Source: an uncultured Flavobacteriales bacterium (GTDB lineage: Bacteria > Bacteroidota > Bacteroidia > Flavobacteriales_E > Vicingaceae). From it: DNA of 47,361 nt. A program made the position numbers and the translations under genes. The notes beneath the pieces are model-generated. The model was not told the DNA's origin. It worked only from the letters and a program-made list of their open reading frames with translations, and searched no databases. Positions 43,571 through 47,361 of this stretch are shown here, piece after piece. Location of the stretch: the NCBI GenBank assembly GCA_913056345.1, contig CAJXMH010000003.1, positions 102,694 through 150,054 on the forward strand, written 5' to 3'. Numbering within the stretch: the stretch's first letter is position 1; every line of letters begins with the position of its first letter.

Positions 43571-44578
43571 TTAGCGTTCAAGTGTGACGCTATTGCGCTC
43601 AGGTGCAAATACTTTGCCGTCTTTAAAGAAGTTTACCTGATAATAATAAACTCCTTCAGGCGCCGGAGTTCCGTCAGGCAAGCTGCCATCCCATTTACCA
43701 TATCGACCCTTCCACTGAGCTACTAGTCGGCTAGTTCTTGAATAGATTCTTACTTCTAAATCGTCTATTTCAGTATCGATGATCTCAAAATAATCATTGG
43801 CACCATCTCCATTAGGGGTGAAAGCGTTTGGCATATCAATTTTTGGAGTAGTCAGGTCCGTTTTCTCATCAGAAAAATTACCGTTGTTTCTTGCTATTTG
43901 ATCATCATTTGCTGTTTCATTAACTTGTTCAGCAGCAGACTTGGCTAATTTTTTAGGTTCAGCGCTTGTAGTTGCTTGATCTAATTCTTTTGCTTGAGGG
44001 TCTTCTTTAACTTCGATTTCATTTATCAGTTCTTCAACGTTTATACTTGAAGAAGTTTGTTCGGTTTTCTCGACGGTGTTCTTTGAAACCGCATCTGGTT
44101 TTGTGTCAAAGCGAGAAGACTTGTCTGTGGTTTGATTTTTATCAGTTGTATGCTGCCTTTTATTGCTTGATGAAGCAGTGTTTTGCTCTGCTTGATCTTT
44201 TTTTAACTCAACTTCTACCTTCGTTTTGGTTGGTTCATTTTTAGTTTTACCTTCAAGCTTATTTTCGTTCTCAACCGCTTCTACAAGTTCAGTATCGTCT
44301 TGCTTTTCGGTTTTTACTTTTTTGTTATTTGTAGCTTTTTGATCGAATAGATAATAGCCACCTAAAGCTACCCCTGAAATCACAACAGCTACAACAGCGG
44401 TAGTTAAAATAGAGGAACTGCCTGCTGTGCTTGCCGCGGTTGCTTTTGTAGAAGCGCTTGCTACTTCAGCTTGCGGTAAGTTGTTTTTAATTCCATTCCA
44501 AGCGTTAGCACCAGGATCAACTTCGTAGTCTTTAAAAGCCTCCTCAAATATTTTCTCTATGTCTTTTGCTTGTTTCAA
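43571..44578 (-). CDS. Membrane-anchored anti-sigma-like protein with C-terminal gliding-associated (CHU_C) domain
   Basis: This 335-residue protein starts at TTG, the only start preserving the conserved N-terminus KDIEKIFEEAFKDYEVDPG..AW, which resembles the cytoplasmic N-termini of Bacteroidetes anti-sigma-like proteins. A single membrane helix lies at about 54-76 (SILTTAVVAVVISGVALGGYY). A low-complexity, charged linker (~78-245, rich in Lys, Glu, Thr, Ser and Asn) follows. The end (~248-335) is a gliding motility-associated C-terminal domain: MPNAFTPNGDGANDYFEI, VRIYSRTSRLVAQWKG, WDGSLPDGTPAPEGVYYY. Its start is 4 bp after the sigma factor stop. A role as sigma partner is inferred from context; it lacks a cleavable signal, so the domain is probably periplasmic rather than secreted. 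Confidence 0.78.
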   Translation of the reverse strand: MKQAKDIEKIFEEAFKDYEVDPGANAWNGIKNNLPQAEVASASTKATAASTAGSSSILTTAVVAVVISGVALGGYYLFDQKATNNKKVKTEKQDDTELVEAVENENKLEGKTKNEPTKTKVEVELKKDQAEQNTASSSNKRQHTTDKNQTTDKSSRFDTKPDAVSKNTVEKTEQTSSSINVEELINEIEVKEDPQAKELDQATTSAEPKKLAKSAAEQVNETANDDQIARNNGNFSDEKTDLTTPKIDMPNAFTPNGDGANDYFEIIDTEIDDLEVRIYSRTSRLVAQWKGRYGKWDGSLPDGTPAPEGVYYYQVNFFKDGKVFAPERNSVTLER

Positions 44579-44582
44579 AGCC

Positions 44583-45119
44583 TTATCTTTTGATGTTTAG
44601 TTGTTCTAGTTTCTTTTGAAGCAAGGAACGTGCCCTTGAATACTGTGATTTTGAAGTATTTTCTGATACCCCAAGTTTTTCCGCTATTTCTTTATGCGTA
44701 TAGCCTTCAATGGCATACATGTTAAATACTGTTCGATAACCCAATGGCAAGCTTTGCACCAATTTTAATAAGTCCTCTGCTTGCATACTCGCTATAATCA
44801 CTTGGTCATCTTTCAGTTTGTATTCGACTTCTTCTACATCTAAGTGAAAACGCTCTTTTTTGCGTTTTCGTAAATGGTCTAAAGCCGTATTTACCATGAT
44901 TTTTCTAATCCATCCTTCCAAAGAACCCTTGCCGGTATACGAACCGATCTTCTTGAATACCTTGATAAAGCCATCTTGCACCATGTCTTGGGCTTCTTCA
45001 TAGCGGTCTGCATAACGCATACAAACACCAGTCATAACCCTTGAGTAGCGTTCAAAAAGTTGTTTTTGTGCTACTTCATTATTCTTTTGGCAGCCTTCCA
45101 ACATTTTTTCATCACTCAT
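44583..45119 (-). CDS. ECF-type RNA polymerase sigma factor
   Basis: Counting from ATG 45119 the protein has 178 residues. Region 2 spans ~12-80, with LFERYSRVMTGVCMRYADRYEEAQDMVQDGFIKVF containing the core-binding helix. Region 4 spans ~115-170, with LPLGYRTVFNMYAIEGYTHKEIAEKLGVSENTSKSQYSRAR as the helix-turn-helix. An in-frame TTG at 45143 would add eight residues, but the ATG fits the family better. It is co-transcribed with the membrane-anchored CHU_C protein that follows after 4 bp, the usual sigma/anti-sigma order. Confidence 0.9.
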   Translation of the reverse strand: MSDEKMLEGCQKNNEVAQKQLFERYSRVMTGVCMRYADRYEEAQDMVQDGFIKVFKKIGSYTGKGSLEGWIRKIMVNTALDHLRKRKKERFHLDVEEVEYKLKDDQVIIASMQAEDLLKLVQSLPLGYRTVFNMYAIEGYTHKEIAEKLGVSENTSKSQYSRARSLLQKKLEQLNIKR

Positions 45120-45202
45120 TCTGCTTGGGTCAGACTTTAACAAGGTTCCGTTTTTAGATGAAAAATAGGATAAGATAGTTGCATGCCCTTAGCGCTTTTT
45201 TA

Positions 45203-45227: not shown

Positions 45228-46274
45228 TTAGCGATTAGTCGCCTTTTTAAGCGTGAAAGAAAAAGTTGAGCCTTCGCCCTCTGTGCTGCGGACATTTATG
45301 GTTTGGTCGTGGGCCTCAATAATGTGTTTTACAATGGCGAGGCCTAATCCTGAACCGCCTTCAGCCCTCGAGCGCCCTTTGTCAATTCGGTAGAAACGTT
45401 CAAATAAACGAGGCAGGTGTTCCGCGGCTATGCCCTTTCCATTATCATTCACTTCTACCAAGATGTTTTCGTCCATGTCAAAAAACCTTATTTTGGTAAA
45501 GCCTTCTTCTTTTCCGTAGTTAATGGAGTTAACAATCAAATTGGTAAGGACTTGGGCGATTCGTGTAGGATCCGCATTTACCTTGGTAGGTCTATTGGTA
45601 CTCAGACGAAGTTGAATGTTTTTCGACTTTGCTTTATATTCAAGTGATTCGATCACTTCTTCTGTCAAATCGTTTAAGTTAAAATCCCTTCGATTAAGGT
45701 TGATTCGGTTGGACTCTAAACGCGAAATTTCCTCGAGGTCATCGACCATTTCAATCATGCGGTTAATACTTTTCTCAGCCTTCAACAAAAAGTTTCGATT
45801 GATCTTTTTGTCATCCAGCCCACCTTCTAAAAGTGTTAGAATATAACCTTGGATGCTAAAAATTGGTGTTTTCAATTCGTGTGAAACATTCCCTAGAAAG
45901 TCTCTTCTGAATTTCTCCTGATCTGTTAATCGCTCGATCTCCCGCTTATTATCGCGATCCCACTCAATCACTTCTTCCCTGATCTTGCCAAAGATGTCTT
46001 CCTTCATATCAATTGACTGTGCTTCTTTTTTTAAACCAAGTTTCCGATTATGGATGGTTTTGTAGATCAAACGGAATTTACGGTCAATAAATTGACGTAT
46101 CCCCCAAATAAAAACGAGGTAAGTGATGAGGAGTGTGGCGAGGAAAAGTGTAGTGGTGAAAAAGAAGTTAAATTCTTGGTAAGCAAGCCAATAAAGGCTT
46201 CCAATCGAAGATACGATCACTGCAATAGCAAGTGATAAACGAATGGCAAGGTCTTGGGGGCTTAAATTTCGCAC
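45228..46274 (-). CDS. PhoR-like sensor histidine kinase
   Basis: From GTG 46274 the kinase has 348 residues. Two membrane helices (about 11-32 and 37-57) enclose a very short periplasmic loop, so it probably has no classic sensor domain outside the membrane. The HisKA domain has the phospho-acceptor His132 in FLGNVSHELKTPIFSIQGY, and the HATPase domain has LTNLIVNSINYG (N box), VNDNGKGI (G1) and GGSGLGLAI (G2). In-frame TTG codons at 46334 and 46322 are alternative starts that overlap or adjoin the response regulator gene; GTG fits best because related kinases begin just before the first helix. The pair with the upstream regulator resembles PhoR-PhoB. Confidence 0.9.
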   Translation of the reverse strand: MRNLSPQDLAIRLSLAIAVIVSSIGSLYWLAYQEFNFFFTTTLFLATLLITYLVFIWGIRQFIDRKFRLIYKTIHNRKLGLKKEAQSIDMKEDIFGKIREEVIEWDRDNKREIERLTDQEKFRRDFLGNVSHELKTPIFSIQGYILTLLEGGLDDKKINRNFLLKAEKSINRMIEMVDDLEEISRLESNRINLNRRDFNLNDLTEEVIESLEYKAKSKNIQLRLSTNRPTKVNADPTRIAQVLTNLIVNSINYGKEEGFTKIRFFDMDENILVEVNDNGKGIAAEHLPRLFERFYRIDKGRSRAEGGSGLGLAIVKHIIEAHDQTINVRSTEGEGSTFSFTLKKATNR

Positions 46275-46311
46275 CCTTAAAGCTAACGGTTTTCTAGGAA
46301 AAAAGTAAGCC

Positions 46312-46989
46312 TTAAGCCTCAAACTTGTATCCAACTCCTTTTACTGTTTTGATGTATTCATCGCCCAGTTTTTCTCTTAGCTTTCTAATGTGAACGTCAA
46401 TGGTGCGATCTCCCACCACAACTTCTCCACCCCAAATGCTATTCATGATTACTTCTCTGGTATATACTCTGCCGGGCTTGCCCATTAATAAAGAAAGTAG
46501 TTCAAATTCTTTTTTGGGCAAACTGATCTCTTTTCCCTCCTTTTTGATCAAATAGCGCTCTCGGTCAATTGAAATGTCACCCACTTCTATGTCTTGCTCT
46601 TCTGCAGCATTACTGCCTTTTCTTCTTAAAATAGCCTTTACCTTACTGATTAATACTCTTGGTTTAACCGGCTTAGTAATGTAATCGTCAGCTCCTGCAT
46701 CAAAGCCGGCAATTTGGGAATAATCTTCGCCTCTAGCGGTTAGAAATGCGATTAAAGTGTTTTTTAGCGATGGAATGTTACGCATTTGATAACAGGTTTC
46801 CATCCCATCCATTTCAGGCATCATGACATCAAGTATAATCAGATCAGGTAATTCTTTCTTGGCAACTTTAATGGCATCTTTACCATTGGAGGCTGTAGAA
46901 ACCTCGAAGCCCTCTTTTTTTAGGTTATAGCCAACAATTTCTATAATGTCTGGCTCATCGTCAACAAGTAAAATTTTTTCTTTTTTCAT
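46312..46989 (-). CDS. OmpR/PhoB-family response regulator
   Basis: This 225-residue regulator has a receiver domain with acidic pocket Asp10/Asp11, phospho-acceptor Asp54 (LIILDVMMPEMDG), and the conserved Thr and Lys in AFLTARGED and YITKPVKPRVL. A winged-helix DNA-binding domain (~128-225) follows, with LPKKEFELLSLLMGKPGRVYTREVI and VVGDRTIDVHIRKLREKLG. It is transcribed first in the kinase pair. The region upstream carries TTAA repeats at 11-bp spacing, which is how this family of regulators usually binds, so autoregulation and control of the divergent lipoprotein gene are plausible. The stimulus (phosphate?) is not shown by sequence. Confidence 0.93.
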   Translation of the reverse strand: MKKEKILLVDDEPDIIEIVGYNLKKEGFEVSTASNGKDAIKVAKKELPDLIILDVMMPEMDGMETCYQMRNIPSLKNTLIAFLTARGEDYSQIAGFDAGADDYITKPVKPRVLISKVKAILRRKGSNAAEEQDIEVGDISIDRERYLIKKEGKEISLPKKEFELLSLLMGKPGRVYTREVIMNSIWGGEVVVGDRTIDVHIRKLREKLGDEYIKTVKGVGYKFEA

Positions 46990-47043
46990 TAAAGCTAAGA
47001 TAGGTAAAGCGCTGCTAAATTATTCACTCTTACACTTACCCAT

Positions 47044-47091
47044 GTTAACTAATGTTTAAGGATTGCTTAAGTTGATTAAAGCCCTGTTAAA
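47044..47091. promoter_or_regulatory. Pho-box-like array 1: phased TTAA direct repeats
   Basis: TTAA cores begin at 47045, 47056, 47067, 47076 and 47087, i.e. steps of 11, 11, 9 and 11 bp. The flanking units read GTTAACTAATG, TTTAAGGATTG and CTTAAGTTGAT. Direct repeats with one-turn spacing are typical sites for PhoB/PhoP/OmpR-type regulators, and such a regulator is encoded next door. The binding protein is inferred. Confidence 0.5.
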
Positions 47092-47129
47092 TCAAGCTTT
47101 CCAAAGGGATGATCTACTCTTTCTGCTTG

Positions 47130-47162
47130 CTTAACATTTCCTTAAACTATCCATAAGTTTTT
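47130..47162. promoter_or_regulatory. Pho-box-like array 2: three 11-bp repeats
   Basis: Three consecutive 11-mers CTTAACATTTC, CTTAAACTATC and CATAAGTTTTT lie end to end (47130, 47141, 47152), each with C(T/A)TAA at its start. They sit about 95-125 bp upstream of the lipoprotein ATG. A possible -7 element further down (CACATTTG, 47201-47208) is one mismatch from TAnnTTTG. Confidence 0.45.
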
Positions 47163-47256
47163 AATAACTCCAAAAAAAGATAGGGCTAATAATGCCGTGC
47201 CACATTTGCGGCAACAAAATAAAACACTAACTGAAACTAATTTTAACTAAACAATC

Positions 47257-47361
47257 ATGAAAAATTTCAGATTTACAACAAGACTACTAATGGGAGCTGC
47301 TATTGCTTTTGCAGCTATGGCTCCTTTAACTTCATGCAGCGACGATGACGACGATGATGAA
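47257..47361 (+). CDS. Surface lipoprotein, 5' part only
   Basis: The window ends after 35 codons. The visible part is a basic N-terminus (MKNFRFTTR), a hydrophobic stretch, and a lipobox LTSC with Cys27, followed at once by Ser and six Asp. The SDDDD-type stretch after the lipidated Cys matches the lipoprotein export signal described for Bacteroidetes, so the protein is probably moved to the cell surface. The rest and the function are outside the window. It is divergent from the two-component system, with Pho-box-like repeats upstream. Confidence 0.75.
   Translation, partial: MKNFRFTTRLLMGAAIAFAAMAPLTSCSDDDDDDE

Follow-up and report, generated by a model that had tools for sequence, protein, structure and literature searches.

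Phased TTAAC direct repeats between a phoB-type gene and a divergent lipoprotein gene form a probable Pho box in Bacteroidota

In an uncultured Flavobacteriales bacterium, the intergenic region between a phoB-type response regulator gene and a divergent surface lipoprotein gene carries two outward-reading arrays of direct repeats, phased at 11 bp and built on a TTAAC core. We propose with good confidence that these arrays constitute a Bacteroidota Pho box, which would drive an autoregulated phoBR pair on one side and a phosphate-starvation uptake operon on the other. This assignment draws on the invariance of the cores among relatives and on the enrichment of the same repeat pair upstream of phosphate genes, and both lines of evidence favor the original prediction of a Bacteroidetes Pho box or an analogous operator. 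The arrays seem to represent a familiar switch in its Bacteroidota form, and not a novel type of switch. In the following, the window is the whole stretch of DNA analyzed (47,361 nucleotides).

Results

The regulator encoded next to the arrays has TIGR02154 (PhoB) as its best NCBIfam match, with 231.5 bits for a cut-off of 296.2, while the adjoining kinase scores 260.4 bits against PnpS and 249.8 bits against PhoR, both under cut-off. Because these scores are below the curated equivalog cut-offs, the names given to both proteins rest also on the gene neighborhood. The DNA-binding domain of the regulator matches that of Escherichia coli PhoB (1gxp) at 1.4e-18, in a whole-length alignment that takes in the recognition-helix stretch RT-DVHIR. 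The window stops at the contig end and therefore includes no more than 35 codons of the divergent lipoprotein gene. L005, the nearest relative, has a regulator that is 89% identical and a complete lipoprotein of 418 residues, whose gene is followed by that of a TonB-dependent receptor. This lipoprotein matched no family in Pfam or NCBIfam; its predicted model (mean pLDDT of 80.8) is strand-rich, and its best fold matches, weak and with no E value under 0.001, are for the most part to proteins with a parallel beta-helix, polygalacturonases and tailspikes among them, so that a beta-helix fold is predicted. Downstream of the kinase gene, the minus strand of the window (43571-45143) encodes an ECF sigma factor and then a CHU_C/type B sorting domain protein, and similar open reading frames follow the kinase gene in L005.

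Table 1. Genes, repeat cores, and putative promoter elements around the intergenic region (window coordinates)
Feature	Position	Strand	Evidence
phoB-type response regulator gene, receiver and winged-helix DNA-binding domains	46312..46989	-	Pfam Response_reg, Trans_reg_C
PhoR-type histidine kinase gene	45228..46331	-	HisKA, HATPase_c
Divergent surface lipoprotein gene, 5' part	47257..47361	+	Orthologue of L005:4480-5736
Putative -7 element of phoB, TAATTTAG	47015..47022	-	Fits TAnnTTnG, whose five specified bases (T, A, T, T, G) are unchanged in 10/10 genomes
Candidate Pho-box pair at the phoB promoter, with cores at 47045 and 47056, TTAAACATTAGTTAAC	47045..47059	-	Core positions 8/8 identical in 10/10 genomes; 11-bp TTAA pair in 80/108 phoB upstreams
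Third phased core of the phoB array	47067..47070	-	In phase only in nearest relatives G007, G018, and G014; column identity 6-9/10
Two extra TTAA cores, 47076 and 47087, out of phase (9-bp step)	47076..47090	-	Column identity 1-8/10, unconserved
Candidate Pho-box array of the lipoprotein/TonB-receptor operon, cores 47131, 47142, 47153 (ATAA), and 47164 (ATAAC)	47131..47168	+	15/16 core positions identical in 10/10 genomes, remaining one in 9/10
Putative -7 region of the lipoprotein gene, TAATAATG	47187..47194	+	Moderate conservation; putative assignment

The intergenic region (46990-47256, 267 bp) is A+T rich. All eight cores of the original prediction, namely TTAA at 47045, 47056, 47067, 47076, 47087, 47131, and 47142 and ATAA at 47153, were found again, and the steps given between them (11, 11, 9, and 11, then 11 and 11 bp) are correct. 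A ninth phased core had been overlooked: ATAAC at 47164 stands 11 bp past the ATAA of 47153, and the second array has four cores in phase, the TTAA at 47161 being off phase with them. Read outward, the first array is TTAAGCAATCC TTAAACATTAG TTAACATGGG on the minus strand and the second is TTAACATTTCC TTAAACTATCC ATAAGTTTTTA ATAACTCC on the plus strand. Repetition of an 11-nucleotide unit in at least two direct copies, one of the hallmarks of a Pho box, is thus present in the window arrays. Four TTAA pairs are separated by exactly 11 bp, for a mean of 0.096 in 20,000 dinucleotide-preserving shuffles of the intergenic region, and at least four such pairs occurred in 0/20,000 of them. By contrast with this spacing, the number of TTAA alone is mildly above chance (9 vs 5.2 expected, P 0.04), and it is the spacing that is the remarkable feature. 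Elsewhere in the window, no stretch of 120 bp has an array that comes close.

We aligned the orthologous intergenic regions of ten genomes, one of which is that of the window. Identity to the window is low over the region, with a mean of 5.6/10 rows per position (the window itself being counted). The cores at 47045, 47056, 47131, 47142, and 47164 are nevertheless identical in 10/10 genomes and that at 47153 in 9-10/10, and the sequence between the cores varies while they stay invariant. Indeed, 23 of the 24 positions in these six cores are invariant vs 47 of 267 overall, for a hypergeometric value of 4e-19 that is indicative only, as alignment columns are not independent. The two arrays are kept almost letter for letter among relatives. 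Of the "at least eight half-sites" originally put forward, all are present in the window, but the conserved set is a different one: it comprises the four lipoprotein-side cores, including the one overlooked, and two on the phoB side (three in the nearest relatives), leaving out 47076 and 47087, which are probably fortuitous or accessory.

Because the cores and the -7 positions are conserved, the two arrays can be seen as pointing outward, one per gene, with a promoter element of its own downstream of each. On the phoB side, the last core starts 26 nt from the -7 element in the window and 26-27 nt in relatives, which is the fixed distance upstream of a promoter-proximal element that characterizes a Pho box; the lipoprotein side, with 23 nt between the start of the last core and the putative -7 region, is less clear.

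To examine enrichment, we gathered genes by protein family instead of by motif, in genomes of the family or class, and inspected the 250 bp before each. A few Na/Pi cotransporter loci earlier retrieved through the motif were merged into this set, and the RR2 query set was dropped since it mostly recovered phoB genes. The exact 11-bp TTAA pair is found upstream of 24/31 Na/Pi cotransporter genes (2.4 in shuffles), 19/27 polyphosphate kinase (PPK) genes (2.1), 7/8 pstS genes (0.8), and 80/108 phoB genes (10.0), the remaining 28 of the 108 phoB upstreams being devoid of it. As background, the other genes of these loci provided 221 upstreams, of which 14% have an 11-bp pair and 2-12% the other spacings. 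The dominant enriched spacing is thus 11 bp, and the enrichment applies to phosphate genes rather than to genes in general. At phoB and Na/Pi, the frequent presence of an extra TTAA between two boxes also raises spacings 5 and 6. PafA, a phosphate-irrepressible alkaline phosphatase (PMC8115612), served as a negative control, with an 11-bp pair in only 5/30 upstreams. Typical sites are CTTAACAATAACTTAACAT at pstS and Na/Pi and TTAATCTTGAATTAACAT at phoB, and the clearest targets give the consensus CTTAACAwTAACTTAACAT with TTAAC as core. The repeats therefore occur, as expected of a Pho box, upstream of several phosphate-regulon genes and not at one locus alone, the anticipated enrichment before candidate targets is strong, and the arrays accompany phoB across genomes and genera.

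The genome that holds the window was searched by exact patterns, each with a reversed control. TTAA-N7-TTAAC-N20..23-TAnnTTnG has three matches in 2.9 Mb and 0 in the reversed control, one before phoB and the two others on both sides of a single intergenic region between a Na/Pi cotransporter gene (Na_Pi_cotrans and PhoU domains) and a PhoB paralogue gene. Two cores with a -7 element discriminate better in this genome than three cores, as TTAA-N7-TTAA-N7-TTAA was rejected for matching three places vs two in the reversed control. Over 41 genomes of the family, the box pair with the -7 pattern gives 115 matches vs 62 in the reversed control, those in related genomes being non-independent. Two matches of a looser pattern were also discarded: at pafA, the site is inside the upstream crcB gene and unconserved, in keeping with the 5/30 above, and at moxR, the conserved repeat has a spacing of 10 bp, not 11. 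Neither PstS nor PstC was found in this genome (99.7% complete), and the Na/Pi cotransporter is therefore likely the main phosphate importer. Hence, the matches that had been expected upstream of pst have the Na/Pi cotransporter as a substitute target here.

The PhoB-like paralogue (L121:8201-8893, minus strand of contig C14) is divergent from the Na/Pi cotransporter gene and flanked by the candidate Pho boxes. At the place expected for the phospho-accepting Asp, its receiver reads LIILPVEL; since this Asp appears to be missing, the usual mode of phosphorylation is improbable for this protein. Counterparts exist in relatives (L186-L189, L294-L296, and L298).

Two further repeats were observed. 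Upstream of the moxR/bat operon, a TTAACA-N4-TTAACA direct repeat with 10-bp spacing is present in 29/30 genomes (L306-L335; contig C6 of the window's own genome, about 108109), and because of this conserved repeat, TTAACA half-sites are not unique to the window regulator. In two genomes of one genus (L156 and L158), TTAACGCTTGCTTAACAA with a -7-like element lies upstream of an aldehyde-dehydrogenase-like gene.

With respect to gene neighborhood, the Na/Pi cotransporter, the PhoB paralogue, the TonB receptor, the lipoprotein, and phoB are encoded within about 10 kb in three relatives (L294, L295, and L296). A phosphate-selective porin O/P gene, confirmed by Pfam, stands in front of this cluster in L295, and a similar gene is found in L296. 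The Na/Pi gene of L299 and L304 occurs together with pstSCAB and phoU. In the phoBR cluster of Flavobacterium johnsoniae, a TonB receptor and a lipoprotein adjoin phoB, and phosphate depletion strongly induces both, with about 8 and 10 as their values in the first fold-change column (PMC8115612). The Flavobacterium loci that we examined have the same cluster with the receptor/lipoprotein order reversed.

Discussion

The window half-site has counterparts in several known systems. The PhoP box of Bacillus subtilis is made of TTAACA-like half-sites about 11 bp apart, which resemble it, but in another phylum and with another promoter type. PhoB-type regulators bind 11-bp direct repeats in a head-to-tail manner, and the Pho box consensus varies between species (PMC4415409). 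The E. coli Pho box likewise consists of 11-bp direct repeats near the promoter of phosphate-regulon genes (PMC4415409), and the DNA-binding domains align; however, its core is CTGTCAT instead of TTAAC, and the window promoter has a -7 element like the TAnnTTnG of Bacteroidota. The cyanobacterial SphR box, CTTAACCT (8 bp and a 3-bp linker), has a nearly identical half-site and the same period of 11 bp (PMC1906773), but targets and promoter are different, and SphR reportedly requires at least three boxes, whereas two to four cores are found here.

Closer to the window, the PHO regulon of F. johnsoniae includes phoB and phoR, which adjoin genes for a TonB receptor and for a lipoprotein weakly similar to pectate lyases (proteins of beta-helix type), although the order of the two is reversed; the main text of that study gives no binding motif (PMC8115612). 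Our literature search, which covered open papers, found no Bacteroidota Pho-box consensus. PhoP of Riemerella anatipestifer, a flavobacterial regulator of the OmpR family, recognizes a TTTAACA core upstream of its own operon, which its authors liken to ArcA and not to a Pho box (PMC9603813). It binds the moxR promoter too, at which relatives of the window genome have the conserved 10-bp repeat. We downgraded it as proof of a Pho box because this PhoP may not be an orthologue of the window regulator and because pstS rose upon its deletion (PMC5399024).

The repeats are very probably the docking site of the neighboring regulator, judging from their sequence and setting. Under phosphate limitation, the PhoR-type kinase would phosphorylate the adjoining PhoB-type regulator, which would then bind head-to-tail on the 11-bp direct repeats through their TTAAC core. 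From the array about 26 bp upstream of the TAnnTTnG -7 element, it would activate phoBR itself, and from the four-core array, the divergent operon encoding the outer-membrane lipoprotein, predicted as a beta-helix, and the TonB-dependent receptor, which would scavenge phosphorus. At 26-27 nt from the -7 element, the bound regulator would occupy the usual place of the Bacteroidota -33 element and might replace the contact made there. Binding, phosphate dependence, and the activating direction of the effect are what we infer from these arrangements.

The arrays could instead be bound by another regulator of the OmpR/PhoB family, or be shared with the PhoB paralogue, in such a way that phosphate genes are the targets while the neighbor is not the main binder. 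The paralogue that adjoins the Na/Pi gene has the same boxes and apparently no phospho-accepting Asp, and a second conserved TTAACA repeat exists at moxR. We nonetheless regard this alternative as improbable, as the arrays belong to the promoter of the regulator itself and go with phoB from genus to genus, and as the 11-bp spacing is common to phosphate targets when that of moxR is 10 bp. Even less credible is that the repeats, with no specific regulator, belong to the A+T-rich promoter as such, be it as DNA that is curved or melts easily or as an extended promoter element, since base composition and a mild excess of TTAA account neither for a dominant 11-bp spacing enriched at phosphate genes nor for cores that are invariant amid intervening sequence that is not.

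Beyond a Pho box for the neighboring regulator, one may speculate on a Bacteroidota-wide TTAAC Pho box under two regulators, PhoB and the paralogue without phosphorylation site sharing the same boxes, the latter perhaps competing with PhoB or helping it, independently of phosphorylation, in bacteria lacking Pst; we hold this extension to be possible but rather unlikely.

Expression studies are the source of what is known about phosphate regulation in Bacteroidota, which are major degraders of organic phosphorus. With a consensus that is testable and has the right spacing, one could recognize the phosphate regulon of uncultured members of the phylum, such as the present one, by sequence alone, and it would link orphan pairs of beta-helix lipoproteins and TonB receptors to phosphorus scavenging.
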